From: Rhodococcus maanshanensis NBRC 100610
GTDB taxonomy: Bacteria > Actinomycetota > Actinomycetes > Mycobacteriales > Mycobacteriaceae
Direction: 5' to 3'
Length of the DNA stretch: 58,665 nucleotides
Assembly (NCBI RefSeq): GCF_001894865.1
Contig: NZ_BCXA01000046.1
Span: forward strand, 1 to 58,665
The position numbers were made by a program, and so were the translations under genes. A model generated the notes under the pieces. The model was not told where the DNA came from. It did not search any database and was given only the letters and a program-made list of their open reading frames with translations. This document shows, piece after piece, positions 8,515-25,937 of the stretch (position 1 is its first letter; each line of letters opens with the position of its first letter).

Positions 8515-8707
8515 CTCTGCCTCCTCGAGCCGGAGCATGGGCCCCGGCCCAACGGATCACGGTGACCGACCGACGCGGTCCACCGATCGGCGGGCACCAC
8601 CCGGCCCGCGCGGCGGCCACTACGGGTTCAATCCTTCGCCCGGCCCCCGCCGGACGCAAGGGCGGCCATGGACCGGATCGGGCCCTCGGGATCGCAACGA
8701 CCGGGAC

Positions 8708-8720
8708 TAGAATTCACGAT
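8708..8720 (+). promoter_or_regulatory. -10 element of a probably leaderless LuxR-family gene
   Basis: TAGAAT at 8708-8713 is separated from the GTG start at 8721 by 7 nt. Transcription would then begin at or within 1-2 nt of the start codon. No Shine-Dalgarno sequence precedes the GTG. Leaderless messages are common in actinobacteria. Confidence 0.5.
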
Positions 8721-11315
8721 GTGAACCTGGCCTGGCCGGTGATCGAACGGCGGGCGGAATCCGCCGCGATCGCCGAAGCCGTGGGATCGACCGACGGTTC
8801 CCGCGGCGTTCTCGTCGAGGGCGTCACCGGCACCGGGAAAACCACCCTCGTCACGTCCTGTGCAGCCGCCCTGCCACGCCCGGTCCGGTGGATCACCGGC
8901 ACGGCGGCCTCCAGGAACAGACCGTTCGGGGCGGTCCGCCGCCTGGTCGACGCGACCTCCCCGTGGACACTGGCGGCCCTGCTGTCCGACATGAGCCGCG
9001 GCCTGAGCGAGGAACTGACGGGCGGCTCGATCATCGTCGACGACGCCCACCTGCTGGACCCATTGTCCGCTGCCCTGCTCAACCAACTCGCGACCGCTCG
9101 ATCCCCGACGCTCGTCGTGGCGATCCGGTCGGGCGAGCCGACGCCCGATGCGGTCACGGCGTTGTGGAAGGACCGCGGACTCGGCAGGGTCACCCTCGGC
9201 TGTTTCGATCGCGCCGAGACAGAGACCGTGCTCGCAACCGCGCTCGGCGGGCCGGTGGAGAGCCGAACGGTCGATCACATCGCGGCGACCACCGGGGGCA
9301 ACCCCCTGCACCTGCGGCGCCTGGTCGAGGGTTCGCTGGCCGCCGGCCACCTGCGCCGTGCGCACGGGATCTGGCAGCTCCGCGAGGACCCCGCCGTCAC
9401 CGCCGAGTTGGCCCGGCACTTCCGCGAACGATGGCTCCAGTCACCTCCTGGCACCCGTAGGGCCGTCGCGTTGGTCGCCTTCGGTGAGCCCATGACGCTG
9501 GCGGTTCTCGGCGACCTGGCCAAGCACGTGTCGATGTTGGGCGCCGAGCGCACCGGGCTGGTCCGGTTCGCCGCGGAGGGCCGGACCGTGGTGGCGCGGC
9601 TGGCGTATCCGTTCCTCGGCGACGTGATCCGCGAGTGTGTGGACGATCCGACGGCCCGCCGGATCAGGGGCGAGCTCGCGGCCCGGCTCACCGGCGCGCC
9701 CGACCCGGCCGAACGTATCCGGGCCGCGGAACTCTCGCTTGGCAGCGACCGTCCGGCCGGTGCCCGCGAGCTCACCGCGGCGGCCGCGGACGCCATCGCA
9801 CTCTGCGCCTTCGACAGGGCGGTCGGGCTGGCCCGCGCTGCCGTGACCGATGGCGGCGGCCTCGAGGCCCACCTGGTCCGCGCCGCCGCGTCGGCCGGGA
9901 CGGGCCGGGCCGCGGAGGCCGAGGAACTCCTGGCCACCCTCGACCCCACCCGCATGGCCGAGCCGGACCTGGTCCTGTGGGCGATGCTCCGGGCCGGAAA
10001 CCTGTACCGGAACCTGGGCTCCGGCGATCGCGCGACCGACCTCCTCGCCGCGACCCGCAGGCGGGTCACCACACCGGCGAGCCGCCAGTGCCTGGACGCG
10101 GCGCGCGCCGCCATCGACGTCCGTCTCGGACACACCTGCGCCGCAGTTCAGGTCGTCGAGCGGATCCGCGACGCGGGGCGCGTCCCACCCGCGGCCCGGA
10201 TGTGGGCGGCGAGCGCGGGTTGTCTCGCGCTGAGCCTGATGGGTCGCGGGAGCGAGGTGCCGCAATGGTCGCGCCAGACGGACGGACTCACCCGATGGGA
10301 CACGTCCGCACTGCGATTCGCCATAGGGCAGGGTGAGATGCTCGCGCTGACCTACACCGGTGAGTTCGGACCGGCCGAGCTCTGCGCGCGGCGGTACCTG
10401 GAGCTGGCACGAAACCACGACGATACCTGGTACGGCATGAGCGCACTGCTCGGAAAGCTCGAGCTGGCCAGGGGCCGGCTGCACGAGTGCAAGGCGAGAC
10501 TCGAGGAAGCGGTCTCGGGCCTGGGGCGAACGGACCCCGAGTGGCGGGTCCTCGCCAACCTCCTTCTGGCCCAGTGCCTGGCGCTGCTGGGACGACCATC
10601 CGACGGGGTCGCGGCGGCCGCACGCGCGGAGGACGCGCACGGGGAGAGCACGGTGCTCTACGGTGCCGATCTCGGCATCACCCGGGCCTGGCTCGCGGCC
10701 GCATCGGGTGATCTCGGTCGCGCCATCGGACTGGCCCGTCGCGCCGCGGACCAGGCGAGTCGACACGGGCTGCATGCCGTCGAGGCCGAGGCGATGCACT
10801 CCGCCGTCCGGTTCGGCGATCGCGCCTGCGGCGCGCGCTTGAGGGCGCTCGCGAACGTGGTGGACGGGGACTTGATCGCCCCGATGACCGCGCAGGCGGT
10901 TGCCGCCGAAGCGGCGGATGGGGACGGGCTACTTTCTGCCGCATCCCAGTTCGACCACCGTGGCTCGAGGCTGCTTGCGGCGGACGCCTACGCCCAGTCC
11001 GCGGCGGCCTACCGTCGAGCGGGCGATCGGCGCGCCGAGTTACGGGCATCCACCCGGGCCTACACCCTCGCCCGCCTGTGCGGCGACGCACAGACCCCGG
11101 CGATCCGCGCCGCCGCCGGACCGCTTCCGCTGACCCCGCGTGAACACGAGGTCGCCGTGCTCGCTGCCGCCAAGTTGACGAACCACGAGATCGCGGATCG
11201 GCTGGAGGTGTCCACGCGCACCATCGAGGGGCACATCTATCACATCTACATGAAGCTCGAGGTGCCGGATCGCGAGAGCCTGGCCGACACGATTCTCATG
11301 GAGACCACCCCATAG
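8721..11315 (+). CDS. Large ATP-binding LuxR family regulator (LAL), copy 1
   Basis: 864 aa from a GTG at 8721. The N-terminal AAA/STAND ATPase has Walker A GVTGTGKTTLV (residues ~32-42) and Walker B SIIVDDAHLLD. A long helical, TPR-like middle (ELTAAAADAIALCAFDRAVGLARAAV and similar) follows. The C-terminus is a LuxR/GerE helix-turn-helix: LTPREHEVAVLAAAKLTNHEIADRLEVSTRTIEGHIYHIYMKL. LAL proteins (MalT type) are ATP-dependent activators that sense an inducer through the middle region. It is paralogous to the convergent gene at 11322-13889; the two stops are only 6 nt apart. The inducer and targets are not evident. Confidence 0.93.
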   Translation: MNLAWPVIERRAESAAIAEAVGSTDGSRGVLVEGVTGTGKTTLVTSCAAALPRPVRWITGTAASRNRPFGAVRRLVDATSPWTLAALLSDMSRGLSEELTGGSIIVDDAHLLDPLSAALLNQLATARSPTLVVAIRSGEPTPDAVTALWKDRGLGRVTLGCFDRAETETVLATALGGPVESRTVDHIAATTGGNPLHLRRLVEGSLAAGHLRRAHGIWQLREDPAVTAELARHFRERWLQSPPGTRRAVALVAFGEPMTLAVLGDLAKHVSMLGAERTGLVRFAAEGRTVVARLAYPFLGDVIRECVDDPTARRIRGELAARLTGAPDPAERIRAAELSLGSDRPAGARELTAAAADAIALCAFDRAVGLARAAVTDGGGLEAHLVRAAASAGTGRAAEAEELLATLDPTRMAEPDLVLWAMLRAGNLYRNLGSGDRATDLLAATRRRVTTPASRQCLDAARAAIDVRLGHTCAAVQVVERIRDAGRVPPAARMWAASAGCLALSLMGRGSEVPQWSRQTDGLTRWDTSALRFAIGQGEMLALTYTGEFGPAELCARRYLELARNHDDTWYGMSALLGKLELARGRLHECKARLEEAVSGLGRTDPEWRVLANLLLAQCLALLGRPSDGVAAAARAEDAHGESTVLYGADLGITRAWLAAASGDLGRAIGLARRAADQASRHGLHAVEAEAMHSAVRFGDRACGARLRALANVVDGDLIAPMTAQAVAAEAADGDGLLSAASQFDHRGSRLLAADAYAQSAAAYRRAGDRRAELRASTRAYTLARLCGDAQTPAIRAAAGPLPLTPREHEVAVLAAAKLTNHEIADRLEVSTRTIEGHIYHIYMKLEVPDRESLADTILMETTP

Positions 11316-11321
11316 CGGAAC

Positions 11322-13889
11322 TCAGTCCCGCCGATACTGCCTGTCCACCAGGGCTTCTCGATCATCGACGCCGAGTTTCGCGAGCACACGGTGCACGTGC
11401 CCCTCCACCGTCCGCACGGACAGTGTCAGCCGCTCCGCGATCTCCCGATTGGTCATGCCGGTGGCAACGAGGGCGGCGACGACGCGTTCCCGCCCGGTCA
11501 GGGCCATGGGATTCTCGAGCACGCTCAACGCCGGAGTGCGCGCGCCTGGGCACTCGGCGGCCAGCCGCCGAGCCGTGGCCGCAGACCGCCGTTCACCGAG
11601 ACTGTCCCCACACCGGTTGTGCTCCATCGCGGCCTGAGCGGCGGCGTCGGCCGCCAGCAGATTCGCGGACATGGCCTCGAACTCGGCTGCGACACTGTCC
11701 AATCCATGACCATCGCGGTTCCGCAATGCGTGTGCGTGCGCGGAGGCGACCCGGACGAACGGGCCGTCGACGAGGCGCATCAGACGGCGCAGCCGTGCGG
11801 TCGCCGACCGATCCCCGAACCGGACGGCGGTGTGCAGGGCCATCGCCTCGATCCCGAACATCGATCCCTCTCGGGCCAGGACGGCGGCGTCGCGTGCCAC
11901 CCTGATCGCCTCGCGGTGCTCCCCGCAGCCAGCCACGATCCAGGCCCTCGCGTGTGACAGATCCGGTCCGAACGTCGCGAGGTGCTCGCCGAAGGACTCC
12001 TCCGCGTAATCGAGGGCCTCGATCGCCTGCTCGGTTCGGCCCTGCGCGCCGAGCGCCTGGCACAGGCCGATCGAGCACAGCACGACCCACATTCGTGGGC
12101 CACCGTTGACGGCGGCGGCGCGGCCGCGCCGAAAGTGCTCCTCCGCCGCCGCGACCCGGCCGGTGGCCAGGTACGCGAGGCCGTGGATGTATCCGTCCAC
12201 CACCCATCTCGAGCGCCCGGGAGGAGTGGCGATCGAGTAGCGATCGAGCATCTCGAGGACACCGGCGAGGTTGCCGGACAGGGTCGCCGCCGACACCTCG
12301 GCCACGCCGATCTGCATGCGCCCCAACAGGAACCCGGTTCCGGTCGCCGCCGCCACCCCGCGTTCCACGATGTCGGGCACCTCATCGGTGTGGCCGGCCC
12401 TGGCCAGGGCGAAACCGCCCGTGGAGGCGGCGAAACTCATCGCCAGCGCCGAGGTGTTCTCCGCCCCGAAGAGCGTGCGCGTCAGCTCGATCGAACGCGG
12501 CACGTTGTTGGCGAAGAAGTCGAAGGTCACGTCCGCCGACGACAGCACCTCCAGCCCATCGCGACTGGTCGCGTGTTCCCGCAGCCCGTCCAGCTCACGC
12601 CGGGCCGCATCCTGCCTGTTGTCGAAGAAGTAGGTGGTCGCACGCCACAACCCCCAGGCGAGACGTTCGTACTCCGGCACCGCGACGGGGTCGAACGTGC
12701 CGAGCAGCACATCGGCCTCCCCTGCCCTGCCCTGCCACGTCATCGCCCGCGCGAGGACCACCGCGGCCCTCAGCCCGCAGCCGCCGAGCAGCGCCGCCTG
12801 CGCCAGTCGTTCCGCGAGCGGGTAGTCACACAGCGCGAGCGCACGTTCGGACGCGTCGACAAGGAGTGCGGCATCCAGGTCGACGTCGGCGTCCAGTGCG
12901 AGGGTCGCCATCCGGAGCTCCTCACCAGCCGTCGGGCCCGCGGCGAGGGCGCGCACCAACCGCCCCCGCAGACTGCGCGCGGCGAGCACGGGCGTTCGCT
13001 CGCGGAGCGCCTCGCCCACGATCGGATGGCGCAGCCGCACCACGCGCGGGGTCGCATCCGAGCCGATCCACAGGTGCCCACCGCGCCGCGCCTCGGCCAC
13101 CGCATCGCGCGACGCGGCGCGGGCGAGCACCCCCACGTCGAGGTCGCCTGCGAAGGCCAGCAGCCACAACACGTCCATCACCTCCTGGTCCGCCGTCGGC
13201 AGTCGCGACACGAGCAGCGTGGCCAGCTCGTCGGTCATCACCGGGCGGGATTCGAGCTGCCAGACGCCACCGATCTGGAACAGCAATCCGGATTCCCAGG
13301 AACCCTCGACGAGGTGCCTCAAGTACAGCGGATTGCCCTCCGAAATCTCCCACATCCACTGCGCGCTGACCCGGTCCAGCGGCCCGTCCAGAGCGGACTC
13401 GAGCACGCGATAGGCCTCGTCTCGAGCGAAGGGGGCGAGGTCGATGCGATCGAGCAGCCCATCGGCGACGATCGCGGGGTCCGGGCCGGTCTCCACGCTG
13501 CCGACGGTCACGACCAGGTGGACGTCGCCGTCCTCGAGGAGCCGGCCGACCAGGGCGGCGGACAACGGGTCGAGCAGATCGGCGTCGTCCACGATGAGGG
13601 CGGTGTCACCCCGGCCGCCCAGTGTCGAGCGGGCGTTCGCGAACGCCGTGGCCGGGTCCACTGTCGCGTCGATCTCGATCAGGTGGGCAAAGGCACCGAG
13701 CGGGATCCGGCGGGTCGACTCCGAGCCTGCGGCCCAGAGCCGGGTGGGACGCGCACTCGATGCGATGGTGCGCGCCAGCGTCGTCTTCCCGGCCCCGGTG
13801 GGGCCCACGATCACGACACCGCGTGACGGTCCCCGGGAGGAGGCACCGATCTCGTCCCCCCGCGGTATCAATGGCCACCGAAGGACCAT
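11322..13889 (-). CDS. Large ATP-binding LuxR family regulator (LAL), copy 2
   Basis: 855 aa. I chose the ATG at 13889 because the following residues (MVLRWPLIPRGDE) align with the start of copy 1 (VNLAWPVIERRAE); a longer start at 13925 is possible. Walker A VGPTGAGKTTLARTIA, Walker B ALIVDDADLLDPLSAALVGRLL, TPR-like middle, and a LuxR HTH at the end: LTGRERVVAALVATGMTNREIAERLTLSVRTVEGHVHRVLAKL. The gene lies downstream of the 14001-23122 hydrolase operon in the same direction, 111 nt after its last gene, so it may be its regulator or share its transcript. TACAAT 6 nt before the ATG also points to its own leaderless promoter. Confidence 0.93.
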   Translation of the reverse strand: MVLRWPLIPRGDEIGASSRGPSRGVVIVGPTGAGKTTLARTIASSARPTRLWAAGSESTRRIPLGAFAHLIEIDATVDPATAFANARSTLGGRGDTALIVDDADLLDPLSAALVGRLLEDGDVHLVVTVGSVETGPDPAIVADGLLDRIDLAPFARDEAYRVLESALDGPLDRVSAQWMWEISEGNPLYLRHLVEGSWESGLLFQIGGVWQLESRPVMTDELATLLVSRLPTADQEVMDVLWLLAFAGDLDVGVLARAASRDAVAEARRGGHLWIGSDATPRVVRLRHPIVGEALRERTPVLAARSLRGRLVRALAAGPTAGEELRMATLALDADVDLDAALLVDASERALALCDYPLAERLAQAALLGGCGLRAAVVLARAMTWQGRAGEADVLLGTFDPVAVPEYERLAWGLWRATTYFFDNRQDAARRELDGLREHATSRDGLEVLSSADVTFDFFANNVPRSIELTRTLFGAENTSALAMSFAASTGGFALARAGHTDEVPDIVERGVAAATGTGFLLGRMQIGVAEVSAATLSGNLAGVLEMLDRYSIATPPGRSRWVVDGYIHGLAYLATGRVAAAEEHFRRGRAAAVNGGPRMWVVLCSIGLCQALGAQGRTEQAIEALDYAEESFGEHLATFGPDLSHARAWIVAGCGEHREAIRVARDAAVLAREGSMFGIEAMALHTAVRFGDRSATARLRRLMRLVDGPFVRVASAHAHALRNRDGHGLDSVAAEFEAMSANLLAADAAAQAAMEHNRCGDSLGERRSAATARRLAAECPGARTPALSVLENPMALTGRERVVAALVATGMTNREIAERLTLSVRTVEGHVHRVLAKLGVDDREALVDRQYRRD

Positions 13890-13901
13890 GGGGGAATTGT
13901 A
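13890..13901 (-). promoter_or_regulatory. -10 element of a probably leaderless LAL gene (copy 2)
   Basis: On the minus strand TACAAT (13901-13896) is followed by six nt and the ATG at 13889, with no ribosome-binding site. This mirrors the arrangement before copy 1. Confidence 0.5.
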
Positions 13902-14000
13902 GGCGGGGAGTCGATCCAACCTCATCGAACCGGGAACCCACCCGGAAGATCACGTTGCGTACTGCCCATGCCCGCCGCACGAACACCCGGGGCGGCAGCA

Positions 14001-14651
14001 CTACATCAACAGGGCTTCACGTTGCTCATCGGTTCTGGAACGTAGTTTCCGCACGAACAGGGGGTAGTCATTTGCGACGAGTTTGTTACGGTCGATCACC
14101 TTGCCGATGATCGCCTTGTCGAGTTTCCGGTACTCGGTGTGGCGCCATTCAAGCGCCGAATCATCCATGAAGCTGCAGTGACCATGAACCAGTTTCGGGT
14201 CATAGAATTCCACGCGCGCATAGCCGTCGCCGCCGAACACGGCTCCCTCCTCCCGGTGTGAGCCGTGATAGATGTACTTCAGCGTCGTCCTTGAAATGTC
14301 GAGCGATTCCGATCCCCACCCGCCCAGCGGCTTGCCGGTTTGATTGAACGTCTTACCGCGAAGGCTGTAGATTCCCTTTTTGTAGACCACGTCGACGATG
14401 CTCGTCTTCCCGTCCTCACGGCTCGAGAGATACTGTCCGAGAATTTCCGCCCGATCTCCGTCGATCCACTTTCTGAGCGCAGGGCGGCGCGACAACAGTT
14501 CGAGGATGACCAGGGCCACGAAGATAACGAAGATGATGATGGGAATTGTGGTGTCGGCATTCTTCTTTGGGAACAGCCACATCGTCAGTATCGCCGCGAT
14601 CGCGGCAATCGCCGCCGGAAAGGCGCCGGTCCACGAAAATTTCCCGGTCAT
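14001..14651 (-). CDS. Two-TM protein with beta-rich C-terminal domain (Cap15-like layout), unknown function
   Basis: 216 aa from an ATG at 14651 that overlaps the stop of the giant hydrolase gene as ATGA. Two hydrophobic segments lie near the N-terminus (AFPAAIAAIAAILTMWLF, residues ~10-27, and TIPIIIFVIFVALVILELL, ~35-53). The rest alternates short polar turns and strands (VVYKKGIYSLRGKTFNQTGKPLGGW, LKYIYHG, YARVEFYDPKLVHGHCSF). Two TM helices plus a small beta-barrel is the layout of the CBASS effector Cap15 / SMODS-associated 2TM-beta proteins; this is a resemblance of plan, not a proven homology, and no cyclase gene is nearby. Codon use is visibly more AT-rich than its neighbours, a hint of transfer. 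Confidence 0.8.
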   Translation of the reverse strand: MTGKFSWTGAFPAAIAAIAAILTMWLFPKKNADTTIPIIIFVIFVALVILELLSRRPALRKWIDGDRAEILGQYLSSREDGKTSIVDVVYKKGIYSLRGKTFNQTGKPLGGWGSESLDISRTTLKYIYHGSHREEGAVFGGDGYARVEFYDPKLVHGHCSFMDDSALEWRHTEYRKLDKAIIGKVIDRNKLVANDYPLFVRKLRSRTDEQREALLM

Positions 14652-17600
14652 GTGAGCCGCCTCCCCGCGAGGTGCGTCCGCCCACCGTGGCTGGTGGCCG
14701 CTGCACCGTCATCGCGGAACCCGGAGACGCTCGAGACCGGGATCTTGAACTGCATCGCGCGATACGGCCACCCCGCGTCCGGGCCGTCGGTCTTCCACTG
14801 ACTCAGCAGGATGTGGAAGCCGCCGTCCAGCGTGGAGCCGGGGACGATCGACGGCCCGTAGAGCTGCGCGACCGCGTCGTCACCCTCCTGCCCCCAGCCG
14901 ACCCCACGGATCGGCGTGCTCTTGTGCGCCTCGTAGAGGTCGTCGGTGATGTTGCGGAAGACCCGGACGTCGATGTCGTATCCGCCGACGTTGGAGGAGT
15001 CGAAGTTGATGAACACCCATTCGCCCTGGATCCGCCGCAGGCACATCTCACCGAACTTGTCCGCCGAACCCACACCCTCCAGCACGGGGGTGGGCTCGTT
15101 GCCCCAACCCCAGGCGCCCCCGCGCCAGCCCCACCCCTCGTACGCGCCAGGGTCCGTGATCTGCTCGCCTCGGACGCGCCGAAGGATCAGTGGCTTGTCG
15201 CGCTGAAAGCCTGTGGAGAACACATAGACCCAGCCGTCCTCGGCGACGTCCCAGGTCCACAGTTGGGCCAGCCCACGGTGCAGTCCGGCATCGAACTTGG
15301 CGCCCGAGTGTTGCCAGGTGTTGCCGTCGTCCGTCGACTTCCAGATCTCGGTCCACACCACGTTGCCCAGGCCCCTGTTGACCATGGCGTGCAGGTACAT
15401 CGTGTCGCCCACCGTGATGACGTCGGACGGCAGCACCGTGGAGAAGACCGGATTGTTGTGTGGGTAGTCCCAGAGTTGACGCGCGTACCCGGGGTCACCA
15501 CCCGCCGCCTCGCTCCAGGTGATGCCGTTGTCCAGGATCGTGGTGTCGGAGAACAGCCCCACTGGCGCACGCCAATCGCCGTCGCCGACCCGCGGCCCGC
15601 GGAAGGTGTCCCCGAACACCGCCAGGATCCGCCCGGACGGGGTGCGCGCCATGACGCCGAGATCGGTTGCCGCCATCCCGAATCGGTCGGTCAACCCGGG
15701 ACCGGTGGCATCCCTGACCTTCCTCGAACGATGCACCTTGGGCCCCGGGTCGATCGGCGCCGCCGGCATCCGCGGCTGGGGTGCAGGCAGCCGCCACCCG
15801 TTGCGGATGACCTCGTTCCACTCGCCCTCGTAGACGTTTCCGGTGACCGGCCAGCCCCACAGCTGCTGCATTCTGGTCGCGGCCGCCTTGGTCGCGTTGT
15901 CGAAGATGCCCGATCCGGGCACCCCGATCGCCTCCTGCCAGCGCCTGAGGCCGTCCTTCGACGACTGCGGTTCGTTGCCGAAGGTGTTCGACCACGATTC
16001 GGTTGGCCCGTCCAGAGGTCCCCAGTAGTGACCGGCGGGGAGCGGAAAGCGGTCCGGATCGTCCTTGATGCCCGCATATCGCCTCGCCGCGCCGAGCACC
16101 ACGTCGTACGGGAAGGTGTCGGGAACGTCCCAGTGCGTACCGTCCTTGAATCCCTTGAGGACAACCGAGCCATAGGTGTAGTTGTTGTGACTGCTCACAC
16201 CCCGGAGGTTCGCCCCGACCCCGCCGATGTCCACGCGCTCGATGGGGATGTCGTAGTCCCTTGCGACAGTGGCGATGACGAAGGCCACCATGTCGAGTTT
16301 CTTCTCGTGCGCGAGCCACTGCTCTCGGGTCTTGGGTCGCTCCTCGCGGTTCGGGTTCGCCCCACTCCAGGTCTCGACGGTGCCCGAAGTGCCAACCATC
16401 GCGATCTGGACGCTCACGCGGTTGTCGCTGAGCACGCCCCATGCGGTGTTCTTGGTGGTGACGGTGTTGATGATGTGTTCGTCGTCGACGAGGTAGTGGT
16501 AGCTGCCGTCCTGCTGGCGGGCCTGGTAGTCGGCGACATTCTCGGCGCGGGTGTTCCACTCCTGGTTCTCGGTGGTGTGCAGATAGATTCGCAGATAGGC
16601 GCCGTGCCCGGTGTCGTACCCGGGACCGCCGTACCAGGCGATCGGATATCCGCTCGGTGCGGCGACGGCGGTCGGCTCTGCCACGGGCGACGGCATCGGT
16701 TCGGCCGCCGGAGCCCACTGCCCGAACTGCTCCTTCATGATGCGGTTCCGGTCGATGCCGACACCGCCAACGGTCTGCTTGTCGATCTCGAACTGGTGCA
16801 GGTGCGCGGCCGGGTGCACCCGTCCACCGCTGCCCCAGTTGTGCATCCAGAAGTAGCTGCCGATGCCGTCGCGCAGCGCCCAGTCGATGGTCGGATAGTT
16901 GCAGTAGACGCCCATCCGGGCCTTGCCGAGGCGCTCCTGCCATGCCTGCAGGTACGGCCGCACGAGGGTGTTCCACTGGTCCTCGCTGGGCGAGGCGTCC
17001 ACCGACACGTAGATCACCGCGGTGTCGGGACCACCGGCCTCGCGGTGCAGGGTGAGGCCTCGCTCGGCATCCCGGCGACCCTGCTCCGCGCCGCCGAGCC
17101 AGTCTGACTTGCCGAACTGGAAATTGGAGACCACCACCATCCCGCGGGCGCGGAGGTCGTCGGCCTCCGACTTCCGCAGGGGTTTGCCGATCATCCATCC
17201 GGCGCGTGGATCCGAGACGTAGCGGATGGCGCCGACGAACCCGCTCGACTGGATCTGCTGCGCGGTGGGGATTCCCGCCGAGAAGTCCACGAGGAGCTTG
17301 CCGACCAGCGAGCCCTGCCCGTCACCCGTCGTCGCCCCGCGCGGATCGACCGCGTCCCTGAGCCACACCGCGTTGGGATCGAGGTCAGGCCCGCCGAATC
17401 GGCCGGGCGCGCCGAAGGTCTCGAAATGCAGATGCGGTCCGCTCGAACCGCCCTCGTTGCCGACCACTGCGATCTTCTGACCCGCGTGCACTAGGTCCCC
17501 GAACTCCCACTGCCGCCCGGTGTCCGGGTTGATGAAGGACGAGGGAGGCGTGTGTCCGAACGTGAAGTCCAACCCGCATTCATTCTGCGAGTCGATGACG

Positions 17601-17791
17601 AGCCAGGAACCGTAGCCCTGCGGGTCGTCGTTGATCCCGACGTGCGCGATGGTGCCGTCGGAGGGTGCGTAGATCGGTGTGCCGGTATCCGCGGCGATGT
17701 CCACGCCGCGATGGTCCGGCCGGTCGGGGGTCCGGTAGCCGCTGCTCTCGCCCGAGTAGGTGCCGGGGGCCAGCGGGTGGAAACGAATCAT
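14648..17791 (-). CDS. Multidomain peptidoglycan hydrolase: M23 + DUF1906 + amidase + PG-binding-like + DUF4185
   Basis: 1047 aa, ATG at 17791, no signal peptide. Domains in order: M23/LytM endopeptidase (1-150; H27 and D31 in HRGVDI, H120/H122 in GPHLHFE); DUF1906, a glycosidase-like TIM barrel as in Rv2525c (~164-358; LLVDFSAGIPT, YVSVDASPSED, QFEIDKQTVGGVGIDRN); amidase_2-type N-acetylmuramoyl-L-alanine amidase (~381-575; H405 in YLHTTEN, candidate ligands H535 and H553 in GTHWDVPDTFPYD); a helical PG-binding-like segment (~583-668); and a DUF4185 beta-propeller-like domain (~695-1030; TDLGVMARTPSGRILAVFGDTF). The combination would cut the peptide, amide and perhaps glycan bonds of the wall. 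Individual domains are typical of exported or phage lysins, but export is not encoded here. It is coupled by 4 nt to the two-TM gene. Confidence 0.88.
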   Translation of the reverse strand: MIRFHPLAPGTYSGESSGYRTPDRPDHRGVDIAADTGTPIYAPSDGTIAHVGINDDPQGYGSWLVIDSQNECGLDFTFGHTPPSSFINPDTGRQWEFGDLVHAGQKIAVVGNEGGSSGPHLHFETFGAPGRFGGPDLDPNAVWLRDAVDPRGATTGDGQGSLVGKLLVDFSAGIPTAQQIQSSGFVGAIRYVSDPRAGWMIGKPLRKSEADDLRARGMVVVSNFQFGKSDWLGGAEQGRRDAERGLTLHREAGGPDTAVIYVSVDASPSEDQWNTLVRPYLQAWQERLGKARMGVYCNYPTIDWALRDGIGSYFWMHNWGSGGRVHPAAHLHQFEIDKQTVGGVGIDRNRIMKEQFGQWAPAAEPMPSPVAEPTAVAAPSGYPIAWYGGPGYDTGHGAYLRIYLHTTENQEWNTRAENVADYQARQQDGSYHYLVDDEHIINTVTTKNTAWGVLSDNRVSVQIAMVGTSGTVETWSGANPNREERPKTREQWLAHEKKLDMVAFVIATVARDYDIPIERVDIGGVGANLRGVSSHNNYTYGSVVLKGFKDGTHWDVPDTFPYDVVLGAARRYAGIKDDPDRFPLPAGHYWGPLDGPTESWSNTFGNEPQSSKDGLRRWQEAIGVPGSGIFDNATKAAATRMQQLWGWPVTGNVYEGEWNEVIRNGWRLPAPQPRMPAAPIDPGPKVHRSRKVRDATGPGLTDRFGMAATDLGVMARTPSGRILAVFGDTFRGPRVGDGDWRAPVGLFSDTTILDNGITWSEAAGGDPGYARQLWDYPHNNPVFSTVLPSDVITVGDTMYLHAMVNRGLGNVVWTEIWKSTDDGNTWQHSGAKFDAGLHRGLAQLWTWDVAEDGWVYVFSTGFQRDKPLILRRVRGEQITDPGAYEGWGWRGGAWGWGNEPTPVLEGVGSADKFGEMCLRRIQGEWVFINFDSSNVGGYDIDVRVFRNITDDLYEAHKSTPIRGVGWGQEGDDAVAQLYGPSIVPGSTLDGGFHILLSQWKTDGPDAGWPYRAMQFKIPVSSVSGFRDDGAAATSHGGRTHLAGRRLT

Positions 17792-17934
17792 GATTGCCTC
17801 GCCGATGAGGATGGAATCGGATCACGGTTGCCAGCGGGCAGTGGCCCGGCGGGCTCCGGTCGCGGCACTCGCCAGGGTGCACCGCGTACCACTCAATCGT
17901 CGCGGCCTGCACGGTGCGCGTCATGCGTAGTCGG
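17792..17934 (-). other. Longest spacer inside the hydrolase operon
   Basis: 143 nt between the M28 stop and the giant hydrolase start, whereas other junctions are -4 to 30 nt. It contains inverted GCACCG ... CGGTGC arms (17878-17921 region). An internal promoter or processing site is possible; I see no convincing -10/-35. Confidence 0.3.
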
Positions 17935-19161
17935 CTACCCGACTTCGCGTGGGATCCCGTCCAGTCGGCCCGCGAGTGCCGCCAGGTTCATCCGCAGGAT
18001 CTCCATCGCCAGCGCAGGATCGAGCGTCGACACGAGGTCGCGCGCGCTGTGCACGTCACGGTTGGCGGTGTCGTTGTCCTCGATGGTGAGCACCGCCGGG
18101 ATATCGGCGTCGATGAACGGCACGTGGTCACTTGCGAAGGGGGACAACGACGTCGACACCACGAGCCGGGTCCAGGTTGCAGCCGCAGCCACGAGGTCGT
18201 CGATGAGGGCCCGCGAGAGAGGGGCGCCCTCGATCAGCACGCCCGGATCACTGGTGTTGCGCCTGCCGACCATGTCCATGTTGATCACCGCGACGATCCG
18301 GTCGCGCTCCCCTGCCGACAGTCCGGCCACGTGCTCGGTGCTACCGAACAGCCCCTGCTCCTCACCACCGAACAGGATCAGGCGCAGGTCGTGGTGCCAC
18401 GATCGGGTCGCCAGCACACGCCCCAACTCGAGCACACCCGCGGCGCCGCTCGCGTTGTCATCCGCCCCCGGGGCAGGCGCGGCGACTCCGTCCTCGTGGT
18501 TGATCGAGTCGAGGTGCGCCGTCACCACGACCGACCCGCGGTTCGATCCGGCCAGGTCCGCGACGATGTTGCGGCTGACCCCCGCCCCGACCGAGACGGA
18601 CTGCTCGGAAACGGTGTAGCCGAAGGATTTCAGGTCTGCTGAGACCGACTCTGCCGCAGCGAGAAACCCCCCGCTGGTCGAGTGCCGGGTGTGCGGGCCG
18701 GTGATCCGCGCCAGATGTCCCTCGTACGACGACCGTGACAGCAGCCCTAGCAGGTCCCCCATCGTCGGGTCGGTTTCCCGGGCCCCCGCGCGGGGACGGT
18801 CGACGACGACAGCGTCTGCGGCCAGGGCCTCGACGCGCCAGCACCCGCGCTCGGCTGCCGTGGGCGCGGGGACGTCACCCCCGTCGACCACGAGGTGGCG
18901 CCCATGGTCGACCAGGACCGGCACATCGGGGTGCGCATACTGGAAGGACTTCCCCACCTGAGTCACCAGGCTCAACCCCGCGGCGTGTCCCGACAGGGAC
19001 TCTGCCCCGGCGAATCGCCGGACAGGATCGGCGGATTCGGACCACACCACGACCTCGTCGGCCAGCCGGGCCCACCGCAGCGCGCCGCGAGCGGTCGAGG
19101 TGGCGGTGTCTGCACTGTCAAACGACTCTGCGGGCACCGTCGCGAACTCGACGCCGGTCAC
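17935..19161 (-). CDS. M28 family zinc metallopeptidase without signal peptide
   Basis: 408 aa, ATG at 19161 overlapping the previous stop as ATGA. The first ~150 residues are a separate non-hydrophobic N-terminal region (AHPDVPVLVDHGRHLVVDGGDVPAP). The C-terminal peptidase has all five expected metal ligands: H216 in VVTAHLDS, D234 in PGADDNASGAAG, E267/E268 in FGGEEQGLFGS, D296 in NMDMVG, and the His of NRDVHSARD near residue 370. M28 enzymes are aminopeptidases or carboxypeptidases using two zinc ions. Known bacterial members are usually secreted, but this one begins MTGVEFATVPAES and has no export signal. Confidence 0.9.
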   Translation of the reverse strand: MTGVEFATVPAESFDSADTATSTARGALRWARLADEVVVWSESADPVRRFAGAESLSGHAAGLSLVTQVGKSFQYAHPDVPVLVDHGRHLVVDGGDVPAPTAAERGCWRVEALAADAVVVDRPRAGARETDPTMGDLLGLLSRSSYEGHLARITGPHTRHSTSGGFLAAAESVSADLKSFGYTVSEQSVSVGAGVSRNIVADLAGSNRGSVVVTAHLDSINHEDGVAAPAPGADDNASGAAGVLELGRVLATRSWHHDLRLILFGGEEQGLFGSTEHVAGLSAGERDRIVAVINMDMVGRRNTSDPGVLIEGAPLSRALIDDLVAAAATWTRLVVSTSLSPFASDHVPFIDADIPAVLTIEDNDTANRDVHSARDLVSTLDPALAMEILRMNLAALAGRLDGIPREVG

Positions 19162-19469
19162 GGCGGCCCACCCACTTCCAGCTCCAGGCGATCCTTGTCG
19201 ATCCGGACCACCCGGACGACGCGGTGCTCGCCCGCCGCCGTGGTCACCTCGAGACCTCCGTTCTCGGTGCTCGACTCCCAGGTCCCGTCCCGGGCTTCAC
19301 CGGCGTCACCCCGGCCGATCGCCCAGTCGACGTAGGAGCCGTCCGGGCGGAACTCGATCCCGTCGCGGCCGCGCGCCCGCGGGAAGTCGTAGCCGGCCGG
19401 CCGGTACACGCGAATCCCGTCGTGGTCCTCCTCGAACGAATGGACCCATCGTCCACAGAGTTCCGTCAC
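19158..19469 (-). CDS. Small beta-rich (lipocalin-like) hypothetical protein
   Basis: 103 aa from a GTG at 19469, 16 nt after the M43 stop; a longer in-frame ATG at 19529 would overlap that gene by 44 nt. Visible segments: VTELCGRWVHSFEEDHDGIRVYRPAGYDF, GIEFRPDGSYVDWAIGR, DGTWESS and VVRIDKDRLELEV. Strand-turn-strand spacing with GRW near the start and GTW in the middle resembles small lipocalin-type barrels. No catalytic residues are seen. It ends ATGA-overlapped with the M28 gene, so it could be an inhibitor, chaperone or immunity-type partner; that is inference. Confidence 0.7.
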   Translation of the reverse strand: MTELCGRWVHSFEEDHDGIRVYRPAGYDFPRARGRDGIEFRPDGSYVDWAIGRGDAGEARDGTWESSTENGGLEVTTAAGEHRVVRVVRIDKDRLELEVGGPP

Positions 19470-19485
19470 GCCGTACTCACCGCGC

Positions 19486-20715
19486 CTACGTGGCGGCCGA
19501 CATATCCGATGGTGCCGCCGCCACCTCACCGTCGCCCGGATGCCAGGCGGTTCGCGGGGCGGGCTCGGGTCGGCCGAGAGACTCCCAGCCGTCCTGCGAG
19601 GGGCGCCATCCCGAGCCGTCCCACCACTTGTGGTGGACGGCGCCGTCCGCCCCCGTCACGAACACGTCCATGCGACCGGAACGGCTGGTGACCACCGTCG
19701 GCTGACCGATGGCGGACGCGGAGGTTCCCGTGGCAGGCGCCTGGCCTGCCGGGGCCTCCACTCGCGGGAGCCCCGGTTCCGGTTCGTGCCGCTCGGTCCA
19801 CAACTGCCTGCGCGCACCGTCCAGGCACGCCGTCATCCTGGCGACCTGCCCCTTGGTGAACATCACCATCCCCGCGTCGTCGGTGTAGTCCATGTAGTCC
19901 ATGAACAGGTCTCCATTGGGGCCGTTGTTGCAGGTGACCCTGGGGAAGGTCGGGATGCCGCCGTTGGAACCGGCCTGGTTGGGCGTGTCGTCGACCTCGT
20001 CACTACCGCGGCAGCCGGTGCCGTCGTCACCCCAGATGTGGAAGAGGTTGAGGTAGTGACCGATCTCGTGGGTGGTGGTGCGACCGAGGTCGAACGGCGC
20101 TGCCGCTGTGCCAACCGTCCCGAAGCCGGTGTGGGTGATCACGACGCCGTCGGTCGCGACCGGGCCGCCGGGGAACTGTGCGTAGCCGAGCAGTCCGTCG
20201 GAGAGCTGGCAGACCCAGATGTTCAGGTACCGCTCGGCGGGCCAGGCGGTGGCCCCGCCGCTCTCGACGAACTTGACGCCGTCACCCTGGTCGAACGCGG
20301 CGACGTTCGTCGAGGTGCGGGTGATGCCGTTCGACGGCCGACCCAGCGGATCGGCGGTCGCGAGGAAGAACTCGAGCTGCGCGTCGCCGACCAGATCCGC
20401 GAAGACGGCGGGCACCGTCGACATATCCGCGTTGGCGGCACGGAAATCCCGATTGAGTACCTCGATCTGGCTCTGTATCTGCGCATCGGAGATGTTCTGC
20501 TCTTGGGTGTGCGCCACCACGTGCACGACGACCGGAATCCTGGCGAGGCCGCGGGCCGCGGCCGCACCGGTCGACTCCAACTCGATCGTCTGATTCTCGA
20601 TCTCCGAGCGCGCGATGCGGTACGACTCCGACTCGGTCAGCAACCTGCGGTGCACCTCCATCGCTCCGCACTTGCGGCGAGTCGGCAGTCCGACACTGGG
20701 ATCGTTGCTGGTCAT
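19486..20715 (-). CDS. M43 (pappalysin/cytophagalysin-type) metalloprotease with C-terminal propeller-like blade
   Basis: 409 aa from an ATG at 20715, preceded by AAAGGAG. The zinc site is [11 protein letters not shown] (residues 216-226), the HExxHxxgxxH metzincin motif with Asn in place of the usual Gly. A Met-turn follows at about 275 ([11 protein letters not shown]). The N-terminus ([26 protein letters not shown]) has no signal peptide although relatives are normally exported. After residue ~340 there is a single repeat resembling one blade of a PLL/sialidase-type propeller ([22 protein letters not shown]), followed by a disordered tail. Neighbours are other proteases in the same transcript. 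Confidence 0.88.
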
Positions 20716-20745
20716 GGCGATGAACTCCTTTGTGGGCGTTGACCT

Positions 20746-22860
20746 TCAGAGAATGAGGTCCTGCGGGCGGATCAGTTCCCTCGGCAGAGCGCTTGCCTCG
20801 ATCCGCTCGAGCGGGTCGGCCGCGACGTACGCGTCCATGCCGAGCCCGGTCAACGCGGCGATCCGCCGGACCGGGACCTGGAAGGTGCGGTACGCGCCGA
20901 ACGAGAACGACTCCTCCCCCTCCGCGAACTCCTCCAGCAGGGCCGCCTGGCTCAGCAGGTAGCCGGTGACGGACAGCTCACCGTCCTGCCTGACCATGGC
21001 CACGGCCTTCCAGAACTGCCGGGGCAGGGACACCCCGCGGTAGTGCGGGTCGTCGGCCGCAAGCACCGGCCCCGACACCACGCTGACCGCGATGTCGGCG
21101 TTGTCGGCGTTGTTCAGGATGTAATCCTCCAGCCCCAGCCAGAGTGTGCTGCCCGCGTTGAAATCGTGGTGCTGCGGAGAGCAATTGGTGAAGTGGAAGG
21201 TGTCGTCGTTCGCTGCCTTCGCGGACGGACCCCAGGCCGGATCGAGCCGGCGCACCAGGTGCCCACGGTCGAGGGGATTGTCCCGGTAGACCGCCTCGCC
21301 GGTCTGCTGGTTCGCGGGCAGCCGGGGATCGAGGATCCAGCGGTCGCCCTCGCGCCGCAGGTCCTGCGACTGCTTGCCGTCGATGTTCACCGCGGTGAAC
21401 ATCGCGAGCGCCCTGGTCCGGTGCATGACGACGCTGAAATGGTGGTAGCGCAACTCCGGGGAGGCGACCGCCTCCAGCGCCCCGCCGTGTTCCGGCAACG
21501 GCAGCGGTACGCGCAGGAACCCCGCGTCATAGCCACCACGGTTGCGGTAATCGGGATCGATGGAGATCGCCTCCGGCTCGGCTCCGACGGCCTGCATCGA
21601 CGATCCGTCGACGGCAATCGGCGGCGATCCGCCCGTCACGGACTGCGAGGTGCCGCTTCGGGAGGCACCGACGCGCACGGTGATCTCGAGTGGAATCTGC
21701 ACTGTCACCTCGCCCTCACGGGAACTCTGCCCCCGCCATGTGGCGTCGGACGTCGGCAGGTCCACCGCCGGGGTCACCCGCTCCACCCGTTCTGCGGCAG
21801 AGACCTCGTCCACGAGTCGACGCCACGCGGGCGGCAGGTCGAGGCCGCGGAGGTGCTGGAGGATCCGGCTGACCCGCACCCCCTCGTTCAGGACCCCACC
21901 GAACTCGGTGTGCGCCGGCGCGGGCACGCTCGCGTGATGCAGGGCGACGACCTCCCATTGGTCGTTGAAGACAGGAGATCCGGACGACCCCGGTTCGGTA
22001 TCCGCCGAGTAGTGCAGGAACCGTTCCGGAACGTCCACGATCCGGTTCTCGCGCAGGGCGATCTGCTTCTTGGCCCCTCCTGGGTGCTGAACGATCGTGA
22101 CGAAGTCACCGATGATCGACTTACCCTCCGACTCGATCAACCGGTTGAAGCCGAACGGCGCGAGCAACTCGGGCCTGCCGCGAACTGCGACGAGGGCGAA
22201 GTCCCGCTCACGATCCGCGACGAAGAAGGCTCCCGGGTCGAGCGGGAAGGTCTGCCTCGGCAGTTCCTTGCCGTCGATGCCGTCCTGGAAGTTGAACTCG
22301 ACAACACTGTTGCGGGCCGTGTCCGCGTTCGGCAGCACATGATGATTGGTCAGCATCAGCGCGGGCGAGACGAGCGACCCCGTCCCGAAGCCCTGGTCGA
22401 TCCCACGCCCATCGCGAATGACCACCCGACAGACGGCGCGCGACGCCGCCACACCGGCGTCGAGATACCGGACGCCGACGAAATCCGCTGTGTTGATGAT
22501 CTTCTCGAGCACGACCTCGGCGCTGCCGTCGACATCGGCGACGTCACTGATCCGGTTCAGCGCCTCCTCGACCACGGTCTCCGGCGGGTCCACCGTCGGC
22601 TGTGCGGACGGCTCCTCACCGGCGTAGTAACGGCTCAGCCGGTCGAGCCGTTTCGCGATGCGCTCGGGAGTGTCCGCAGCGGCGACACCGCCGGGCTCGG
22701 ACAGCACGCTCACATGCTCGCCCCGTTGCTGGGCCCGCTCTCGCGCGCGCCGCGCGGCGGCCTCGGCTTGTCGCCTGCGTTCCGTTTCGAATGTCCCCGT
22801 ATACCCTGCGGCACTGCCACTTTCCTGTCCTCCCCGGGGCCGAGGAGTAACGATCGTCAT
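20746..22860 (-). CDS. Trypsin-like serine protease fused to DNA/RNA non-specific endonuclease (NUC) domain
   Basis: 704 aa from an ATG at 22860 with AAAGGAA upstream. An N-terminal Arg/Ala-rich coiled region (25-80) precedes a trypsin-like fold (~125-340) with H174 in LTNHHVL, D220 in ERDFALVAV and S293 in PGSSGSPVF. A linker (~345-465) leads to an endonuclease G/NUC1-type domain with the DRGH motif (H534 in LDRGHLVRRLDPAWG), TNCSPQ and the metal-binding Asn/Glu of DFNAGSTLWLGLEDY. Both active sites look intact. No signal peptide is visible. Protease-nuclease fusions of this kind are known in predicted conflict systems, where cleavage can release the nuclease; that role is inference here. 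Confidence 0.9.
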   Translation of the reverse strand: MTIVTPRPRGGQESGSAAGYTGTFETERRRQAEAAARRARERAQQRGEHVSVLSEPGGVAAADTPERIAKRLDRLSRYYAGEEPSAQPTVDPPETVVEEALNRISDVADVDGSAEVVLEKIINTADFVGVRYLDAGVAASRAVCRVVIRDGRGIDQGFGTGSLVSPALMLTNHHVLPNADTARNSVVEFNFQDGIDGKELPRQTFPLDPGAFFVADRERDFALVAVRGRPELLAPFGFNRLIESEGKSIIGDFVTIVQHPGGAKKQIALRENRIVDVPERFLHYSADTEPGSSGSPVFNDQWEVVALHHASVPAPAHTEFGGVLNEGVRVSRILQHLRGLDLPPAWRRLVDEVSAAERVERVTPAVDLPTSDATWRGQSSREGEVTVQIPLEITVRVGASRSGTSQSVTGGSPPIAVDGSSMQAVGAEPEAISIDPDYRNRGGYDAGFLRVPLPLPEHGGALEAVASPELRYHHFSVVMHRTRALAMFTAVNIDGKQSQDLRREGDRWILDPRLPANQQTGEAVYRDNPLDRGHLVRRLDPAWGPSAKAANDDTFHFTNCSPQHHDFNAGSTLWLGLEDYILNNADNADIAVSVVSGPVLAADDPHYRGVSLPRQFWKAVAMVRQDGELSVTGYLLSQAALLEEFAEGEESFSFGAYRTFQVPVRRIAALTGLGMDAYVAADPLERIEASALPRELIRPQDLIL

Positions 22861-22876
22861 CACGATTCCTTTCGAC

Positions 22877-23122
22877 TCACGCCCCGCCGTGCCGATCTGC
22901 TCGCGGTTCGACCGGCGTCCTACCCGGCCACGGCACGGTCGCTGCGCTCGAGTACCGCCGCGATCGGCGGTCGTCGCGCCTGTCCACGGTCGTCGACCGA
23001 CGGCGCGTTCTCGGCGCGAAGAAGTCCGGCGGCAGACCGTCGGCGAACCTCGACTCGAGGGGCAGGAGCTCGACCGTCGCGGGCTCGGTGCCACCCGGCA
23101 ACAGCACGGCTATGTCGTTCAT
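22877..23122 (-). CDS. Small hypothetical protein at the head of the hydrolase operon
   Basis: 81 aa from the ATG at 23122 (GCGGAGAGCGCC upstream). The first ~35 residues (MNDIAVLLPGGTEPATVELL, then LESRFADGLPPDFF) look like folded protein; the rest is very Arg-rich and low-complexity. It ends 16 nt before the protease-nuclease start, which supports translation as part of the operon. No family is recognised. A frameshift in the second half or a non-coding leader are alternatives. Confidence 0.5.
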   Translation of the reverse strand: MNDIAVLLPGGTEPATVELLPLESRFADGLPPDFFAPRTRRRSTTVDRRDDRRSRRYSSAATVPWPGRTPVEPRADRHGGA

Positions 23123-23198
23123 GGCGCTCTCCGCGTGGAACGGCCCTTGATCATGCGGGCCCACCACTCAGTCTCCCGGCGCGCGACCGATATCACAT

Positions 23199-23214
23199 GA
23201 GTACCCGACTACTC
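23199..23214. promoter_or_regulatory. Inverted repeat in the promoter region of the hydrolase operon
   Basis: GAGTA (23199-23203) and TACTC (23210-23214) are separated by 6 nt, in the 149-nt gap between the divergent starts at 23122 (-) and 23272 (+). GATATC on the minus strand just downstream could serve as a -10. This is the only obvious dyad before the operon and so the first place to test for regulator binding. Confidence 0.35.
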
Positions 23215-23271
23215 GAATCGGCAATGCCGGGCAGGGTTGCGTGGGGCCCTCGAACGCGGTCGAATTGATTC

Positions 23272-23613
23272 GTGGACCCCGAGGAGCGCTTCACCGCGCT
23301 GGTCGACGAGTTCGCCGGCCTCGCGGGCGTGACGGTGCCCGAACAGTGCACCCGGCGGGGCTTCGGATCGGGTGCACTCAAGGTCAACGGCTCGATCTTC
23401 GCCATGCTCACGAGCGGCCGACTGGTGGTCAAGCTGCCGAGAGCCCGGGTGGAGGCCCTGGTCGGGAGCGGAATGGGCGGAACGTTCGAGGCCGGCAAGG
23501 GACGGCCGATGAGGGAATGGCTGACGGTCACCATGGACGACGACCGGACCTGGATCTCGCTGGCCAGGGAGGCCCTCGAGTTCGTGGGAAGCAGGCGTCC
23601 GGCACCCCGATAG
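23272..23613 (+). CDS. TfoX N-terminal-domain / MmcQ-YjbR-like protein
   Basis: 113 aa from a GTG at 23272. The sequence [46 protein letters not shown] and then PMREWLTV is the short alpha/beta fold of TfoX_N-like proteins, which are widespread stand-alone genes in actinobacteria. The biochemical role is not established. It is divergent from the hydrolase operon and followed after 122 nt by the cold-shock gene. Confidence 0.82.
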
Positions 23614-23735
23614 GAGCGCTCAGAACCCCACAAAGTACTCCCCGCCGTAGACGGAGCGCCATCGAGGTGGCATCCTTTACTCGAGACCAGGGTTCTCGAC
23701 CTGAGGATCCGGCTCGCAGTAACAGGAGTAATAAC

Positions 23736-25902: not shown

Positions 25903-25937
25903 TCACACCCCCTAGACCCACCCCCTCAGGAGTTGTT

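Follow-up and report, generated by a model that had tools for sequence, protein, structure and literature searches.

A rhodococcal island with a trypsin-nuclease fusion, proteases devoid of export signals and a phage-type lysin as the candidate effector half of a CHAT/STAND-controlled suicide system

Gene content and organization of the island

The window analyzed here is a 58,665-nucleotide stretch of the genome of Rhodococcus maanshanensis NBRC 100610 (contig NZ_BCXA01000046.1 of assembly GCF_001894865.1, forward strand), and its element of interest is a cassette of seven minus-strand open reading frames (ORFs), denoted g1 to g7 (Table 1). An earlier note on this DNA described the cassette as one seven-gene operon of typically extracellular hydrolases. 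All seven ORFs were found at the positions given there, open and free of internal stops. The seven proteins were searched against Pfam, NCBIfam, PHROGs and PADLOC, and the Pfam matches bear out the enzyme families that had been named: Trypsin_2 and Endonuclease_NS; Peptidase_M43 and DUF346; Peptidase_M28; and M23, Rv2525c-like, Amidase_2 and DUF4185. No significant family was obtained with these four resources for g1, g4 and g7.

The single operon resolves into two transcription units: a conserved palindrome occurs both in the 143-bp gap between g5 and g6 and in the DNA upstream of g1. The remaining gaps measure 16, 30 and 16 bp (g1-g2, g2-g3 and g3-g4, respectively). Two 4-bp overlaps exist, as reported, but only that of g6 and g7 is an ATGA, the one between g4 and g5 being GTGA; the g4 start was set at a GTG that aligns with the relatives, in place of the longer ORF start at 19529. 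The feature is also larger than the seven ORFs, taking in two LuxR-type regulators. This convergent pair is kept behind the lysin gene here, in R. tibetensis (G144) and in R. tukisamuensis (G005), with pairwise identities of 54-68%: LuxR2 is 64% identical to its counterpart in G005 and 54% to that in G144, and LuxR1 68% and 59%, respectively. Between lysin and LuxR lies nothing in G144, a subtilase gene in G005 and g7 here.

Between the same flanks, the island is absent from two congeners, G003, where the flanks are 47 bp apart, and R. tukisamuensis, where they are about 1 kb apart; in R. oryzae (G001) only g2 and a 60-bp piece of g3 are left. Integration at a tRNA site was considered and dropped, there being no tRNA in the window. 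A search for sigma-70 promoters found none and is uninformative because of the GC content of the window. The GC fraction of g7 is 0.57, against 0.67-0.72 for g1-g6.

Table 1. Features of the island and its edges (positions in the window)
Feature	Position	Strand	Basis or remark
Island, ~15 kb	8676..23621 (about)	.	defined by empty site in congener
LuxR2, LuxR-type regulator, convergent with LuxR1	8562..11315	+	ORF; homology from about 8727 onward
LuxR1, ATPase regulator with LuxR (GerE) helix-turn-helix	11322..13925	-	Pfam
g7, two-transmembrane protein with soluble tail of ~150 aa, orphan	14001..14651	-	
g6, phage-type lysin A: M23, Rv2525c-like glycoside hydrolase (GH), Amidase_2, weak peptidoglycan-binding, DUF4185	14648..17791	-	Pfam, PHROGs
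Palindromic site before g6, 14/16, overlapping the end of g5	17922..17940	-	
g5, M28 peptidase, no export signal	17935..19161	-	Pfam, hydropathy
g4, small protein, putative lipocalin-like beta-barrel	19158..19469	-	
g3, M43 (ulilysin/mirolysin-type) protease, cysteine-switch segment, DUF346 repeat	19486..20715	-	
g2, Trypsin_2 and Endonuclease_NS fusion	20746..22860	-	Pfam
g1, deletion scar of lipase and CHAT-STAND genes	22877..23122	-	DNA alignment to G005
Palindromic site before first unit, 15/16	23196..23214	-	
Small ORF, 113 aa, island edge, present in R. oryzae too	23272..23613	+	

A deletion scar in place of lipase and CHAT-STAND genes

Alignment with the DNA of R. tukisamuensis removes g1 from the list of genes and identifies it as a deletion scar. 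Window positions 23215-23094 align with the head of the lipase unit of that genome (74%), a 48-bp piece inside g1 corresponds to the subtilase-like region of its CHAT gene (85%), and a 114-bp piece of the g1 region to the CHAT 3' end, the following gap and the start of g2 (88%). A role of g1 as a small effector or antitoxin was rejected in view of these scar alignments, which match in both DNA and protein. The two genes that relatives carry at the g1 position encode an LCAT-type lipase and a protein composed of a CHAT protease, a STAND ATPase and a degenerate subtilase (CHAT, AAA and subtilase-like domains). The catalytic His and Cys of the CHAT domain are invariant in the four aligned copies. 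In the subtilase part, the alignment, inspected by eye, has Thr where the catalytic Ser is usual.

Intact catalytic motifs and missing export signals

The catalytic motifs are present, in line with the earlier note: those of g2, g5 and g6 were recognized by pattern, and the zinc site of g3 from an alignment with ulilysin. In g2, which matches PF13365 and PF01223, the catalytic residues are invariant in 12 of 12 copies; the closest copies among named genomes are those of R. tukisamuensis (89%) and R. oryzae (88%). The g3 protein aligns with ulilysin and mirolysin over residues 7-313 and shares with them the M43 sequence, the zinc site and the cysteine-switch segment. Its HEXXHXXXXXH motif and its RKCGAM segment are both aligned to ulilysin, and the hallmarks of M43 pappalysins, the Met-turn region included, are present. 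The cysteine-switch motif CG[AT]M recurs in all 14 M43 relatives. The segment is of the zymogen type, and g3 may be latent. Mirolysin is secreted, whereas g3 has no export signal and contains an additional DUF346 repeat. By its resemblance to a lipocalin-like fold and by analogy with the potempins, g4 may be a protease inhibitor.

The absence of export signals was likewise confirmed, by hydropathy rather than with a dedicated predictor: g2-g6 show no signal-peptide-like stretch, and none appears when each frame is followed upstream to the preceding stop. All 18 M43 and M28 relatives likewise lack a hydrophobic stretch after any candidate start.

A phage-type lysin and an orphan membrane protein

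Over residues 161-1017 (82% of g6), the g6 protein shares 67% identity with the endolysin of Rhodococcus phage Finch, and it matches PHROG 28089 with 1341 bits; Gordonia phage lysins covering at least 80% of g6 are 42-46% identical. The lysin A of Finch lacks the N-terminal M23 part and starts at the GH-like domain, whereas g6 has M23 and lies beside immune-type genes. A tree of 13 lysins places the five copies belonging to the system on one side of a modestly supported branch (77/90), near Finch and the lysin of genome G185, with six Gordonia phage lysins separate (100/100). A scan of viral contigs with the lysin gave no match. Some domain of g6 is matched at E<=1e-60 in 173 of the 301 genomes of the family. 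Among the matches listed, six genomes match g6 over at least 650 residues (the source strain, G144, G237, G002, G005 and G185), and in four of these six the lysin lies beside CHAT and/or trypsin-nuclease genes. The gene order in R. tibetensis and G237 is lipase, CHAT, g2, lysin, LuxR; in G002 it is lipase, CHAT and a short lysin, with a csp/Ig-type flank shared with the source strain and the other flank off the contig; in R. tukisamuensis it is lysin, subtilase, LuxR. Among 298 genomes of the order, the lysin was found, besides the source genome, in two, with the M23 and GH part only.

In G185, a g6-family lysin lies near a caspase (C14) gene (locus L093, 8522-14808), with neighboring contractile tail sheath- and tube-like genes, named by eye; this is a second lysin context of an immune-like or injection type. 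In R. tukisamuensis, the other strand behind the g2-g3-g4 block encodes a protein of 1133 aa that combines DUF2272, M15 and phage-lysozyme domains (L009, 11824-15225). The DUF4185 part of g6 has a further, distant relative in the window itself (31083-31853; 26% identity).

The hydrophobic segments of g7 span residues 9-27 and 35-53. No relative of g7 was found in the 300 other genomes of the family, and in a phylum sample of 396 genomes only marginal matches (E 0.003-0.007) turned up, in four other genomes. Homology of g7 to phage holins was rejected after a BLAST comparison with the holins of phages Finch and GMA6, which showed no resemblance; the topology of seven phage proteins was compared as well. 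A likeness to Cap15/S-2TMbeta was noted by eye only, and searches of Pfam, PADLOC, PDB sequences, plasmids and phages returned nothing convincing.

These data bear on the idea that the cassette resembles a type 10 secretion system, in which the lysin and the two-transmembrane protein lyse a subpopulation of cells and free the enzymes as weapons or digestive enzymes. Such systems are known, and the enzymes are cargo-like in lacking export signals; the order of lysin followed by membrane protein with a 4-bp overlap is that of the lysin A and holin genes of Finch, and the lysin gene of GMA6 likewise overlaps its holin gene by 4 bp. However, g7, found only here, shows no resemblance to the holins of Finch and GMA6; in G144, G237 and G002, the lysin accompanies CHAT-STAND genes but no g7. 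Moreover, g2-g3-g4-g5 are kept in Aldersonia, Williamsia, Gordonia and Georgenia without a g6-type lysin in the fetched DNA. We consider lytic release improbable, and the earlier proposal that the cargo leaves through the membrane protein or by a dedicated export route finds no support, given the lack of a g6-type lysin in the DNA fetched from these four genera and of a convincing g7 relative.

Linkage in relatives

With a threshold of E<=1e-20, g2 was matched in 69 of 301 family genomes; many of these matches cover the nuclease only and were not followed. Twenty neighborhoods were chosen for near full-length matches (the higher-scoring G161 and G275 were left out), and three congeners were added; counts were made over 22 loci, including those of R. 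tukisamuensis and R. oryzae. CHAT lies upstream of g2 in 11 of the 22, M43 and g4 lie downstream in 12, and M28 is present in 3; none of the partners occurs in 8, among them R. oryzae with its short g3 remnant. A second set of 77 named loci, one genome per species from the best 80 of 140 and including several of the fetched genomes, contains M43 in 14 (5 on the other strand), g4 in 10, lipase in 7, CHAT in 6 and M28 in 4 (Aldersonia, Williamsia, Gordonia and Georgenia). The locus counts are not independent events because the samples overlap and the genomes are related.

Three conserved blocks emerge: lipase, CHAT, g2, g3, g4; g2, g3, g4, g5; and lipase, CHAT, g2, lysin, LuxR. The earlier note would have been undermined by homologs scattered without conserved linkage. 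The homologs are not simply scattered, but the linkage exists in blocks only; the blocks are real, but g2 mostly occurs without them.

A palindrome shared by the two units

Aligning the DNA upstream of the lysin gene in three genomes revealed a conserved block with the palindrome GAGTAGYCGRCTACTC, and this one sequence heads both units here and the matching units in relatives. In four of the five lysins of the system, the DNA 121-137 bp upstream of the start agrees with it at 14 of the 16 positions; in G002, where the lysin follows CHAT, the score is only 9. None of 3000 random 300-bp control stretches from the rest of the window reaches 14. In its 19-bp form with up to three mismatches, the palindrome has two matches in the window, at the heads of both units. 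With an expected number of 0.83, and with two or more matches in 17 of 100 shuffles, the window by itself counts as weak evidence; the case depends chiefly on position and conservation. In the 1.41 Mb of system loci, the 19-bp form has 82 matches on the two strands together; the other loci fetched, kin and overlaps included, give 72 in 3.72 Mb. Upstream of g2, 12 of 74 named loci score at least 13, all of them from Rhodococcus, Aldersonia, Gordonia and Williamsia (3 of the 77 were dropped for too little upstream DNA). Counts of the palindrome and its reversed control in six genomes of the genus are 11/2 (source), 11/4, 18/6, 7/2, 2/9 and 18/5, with sites often counted on both strands.

Seven sites in the source genome score at least 14, after two of nine distinct sites (on contigs C5 and C21) were taken as chance and dropped. 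Two of the seven head the units of the cassette. Three others precede, respectively, an nSTAND1-WD40 gene (C42, L229), a TIR_2/weak SIR2_2 gene with nSTAND1 behind it (C28, L233) and a SLATT_1 gene (C48, L231); those on C44 (L230) and C66 (L232) have no conflict link. Fifteen other genomes contain 35 distinct sites, of which 7 at the system's own loci were excluded and 28 examined, their neighbors being annotated mostly by BLAST against reference proteins; one of the 28 lies between LuxR-type regulators. Since the sites head conflict genes but also other genes, the palindrome is a putative operator of a wider gene set that includes conflict genes, and a purely defensive operator is unsupported outside the source genome. 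The LuxR pair is a candidate reader of this operator, and a common regulon of the STAND, TIR/SIR2 and SLATT genes with the cassette is possible.

Among the palindrome neighbors named by eye are Pta and histidine ammonia-lyase genes, and the L229 protein, likewise by eye, has a TIR-like start. In G002 (L239, 1312-5236), the palindrome lies between a subtilase gene and a row of DUF1036, Endonuclease_NS and caspase C14, where nuclease and caspase are separate genes.

The palindrome also bears on whether the cassette is one system at all, or two unrelated adjoining units, a protease/nuclease block (g1-g5) and a lysin-LuxR block (g6, g7 and the LuxR pair). The blocks lie on different contigs in R. 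tukisamuensis, and the 143-bp gap here has a palindrome of its own. Nevertheless, both blocks are headed by the same palindrome, and the lysin directly follows g2 in G144 and G237 and CHAT in G002, which makes a mere juxtaposition very unlikely.

Relation to described systems

The note had rated the cassette as the best candidate for an undescribed system in the window, which is true only in part, as the trypsin-NucA core is already in print. In Kaur et al. 2020 (PMC7159879), System 3 has a core of a trypsin-like peptidase and NucA (Endonuclease NS), sometimes as one fused protein; a proteolytic cascade is expected there, with other effectors possibly attacking peptidoglycan. The g2 protein has this core, and STAND NTPase and subtilase partners are common to System 3 and the relatives described here. 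The STAND partner, optional in the definition, occurs in 11 of the 22 relative loci; in the source strain there is only the scar, and the CHAT profile found no copy elsewhere in the genome. As described there, however, System 3 is mostly alphaproteobacterial, with EAD1/Death-like adaptors in a subset of operons, whereas the loci considered here have CHAT-STAND, LCAT lipase, M43, a lipocalin-like protein, M28 and a phage-type lysin. The general Pfam scan detected no EAD1/Death-like adaptor among the seven proteins, and no search aimed at EAD1 was made.

Another parallel is LypABC of Caulobacter crescentus (PMC13236601), which brings about lysis of the cell and is akin to an NLR-type immune system. 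LypC, a trypsin-like protease with an endonuclease, is required for lysis. The g2 protein shares the domain order and approximate size of LypC, compared by description only. LypA combines CARD, trypsin and ATPase and LypB is NLR-like, whereas CHAT-STAND occurs here instead; no LypA/LypB-type partners are present among the island proteins, and the rest of the genome was not searched. LypABC encodes no lysin, and the authors of that work state that its downstream lytic effector is unknown. Hachiman/AVAST pairs couple a trypsin-like protease to a nuclease activated by cleavage; the nuclease there has the metallo-beta-lactamase fold and is a separate gene, whereas here a NucA-type domain is fused to the protease (PMC12799240). 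A literature search found no lysin with CHAT/STAND or trypsin-NucA genes; most subscription journals were outside its reach, hence it is no proof of absence.

Proposed mechanism and its weighing

Among the functions that the earlier note had offered, lysis or self-destruction is the best supported, by the missing export signals in 18 of 18 relatives, CHAT-STAND upstream of g2 in 11 of 22 loci and the lysin linkage in four of six genomes. We favor, with moderate confidence because everything rests on sequence, a reading in which the cassette forms the effector half of a suicide (abortive-infection-like) system that belongs to the trypsin-NucA kind, is controlled by STAND/CHAT and has recruited a phage lysin. 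Such a system most likely serves to kill the cell on induction, with lysis of the wall.

In the complete relatives, detection of an invader would fall to the CHAT-protease/STAND-ATPase/degenerate-subtilase protein, which would set off a cascade of proteolysis. This protein would activate the trypsin-NucA fusion, the nuclease part of which would destroy nucleic acids. The trypsin part would relieve the M43 protease of its cysteine-switch segment, g4 being a putative inhibitor of M43, and M28 would complete the breakdown of proteins. Either the lipase or a pore protein would open the membrane, so that the phage-type lysin could reach and cut the wall. The units would be coupled by the common palindrome, for which the LuxR-type ATPase regulators may be the readers.

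Several observations weigh against this reading. The R. maanshanensis genome gave no match to a CHAT profile; of six genomes of the genus, two did. In 59 of the 77 named loci, g2 has no query gene nearby, and the lysin stands behind g2 in just 2 of the 22 fetched loci and one of the 77 named ones (R. tibetensis). Only 2 of the 28 outside palindrome sites in the 15 genomes head TIR-nSTAND genes (in G144 and G237), most neighbors being unrecognized or unannotated. In LypC (PMC13236601), the protease is needed for lysis, whereas the nuclease residues are dispensable.

The g1 scar, the missing CHAT gene and the loss in R. oryzae of all but g2 and a g3 fragment suggest decay. As the CHAT and lipase genes are deleted and the genome holds no CHAT relative, the effectors that remain here, with their controller gone, may be driven by the LuxR-type regulators or may be decaying. 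In the stronger form of this view, a formerly complete system has lost its controller and its effectors are kept only briefly, with no present function. The further erosion in R. oryzae and the empty site in G003 fit this view. Yet g2-g6 are all open with their motifs in place, and both palindromes and the LuxR pair are kept. The ratio of nonsynonymous to synonymous substitution rates against congeners is 0.13-0.19 for g2, g3, g4 and g6, though most of this history may predate the CHAT loss, and 0.31 for LuxR1. On balance, an island without present function seems unlikely.

A bolder version of the suicide reading, which we put forward tentatively as less probable than not, is that a phage endolysin has been wired as executioner into a rhodococcal CHAT/STAND-governed trypsin-NucA immune cascade. 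The cysteine-switch protease and its barrel inhibitor would form the amplifier, and one operator would tie in the TIR, SIR2-STAND and SLATT genes. The outcome would be pyroptosis-like, with wall digestion instead of a gasdermin pore, and the lysin would suggest what kind of lytic effector LypABC might use.

The row of trypsin-NucA, CHAT-STAND, lipase and phage-type lysin genes in R. tibetensis and G237 makes the link from immune signaling to wall lysis directly testable. If the link holds, phage lysins would have been taken over by their hosts for suicide, a zymogen from a protease family familiar through its secreted members would act in the bacterial cytosol, and one operator could point to further rhodococcal conflict genes.

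Beside the island, at window positions 24180-27665, lie large repeat-rich ORFs, the DNA of which is found again in numerous places across all six genomes of the genus.

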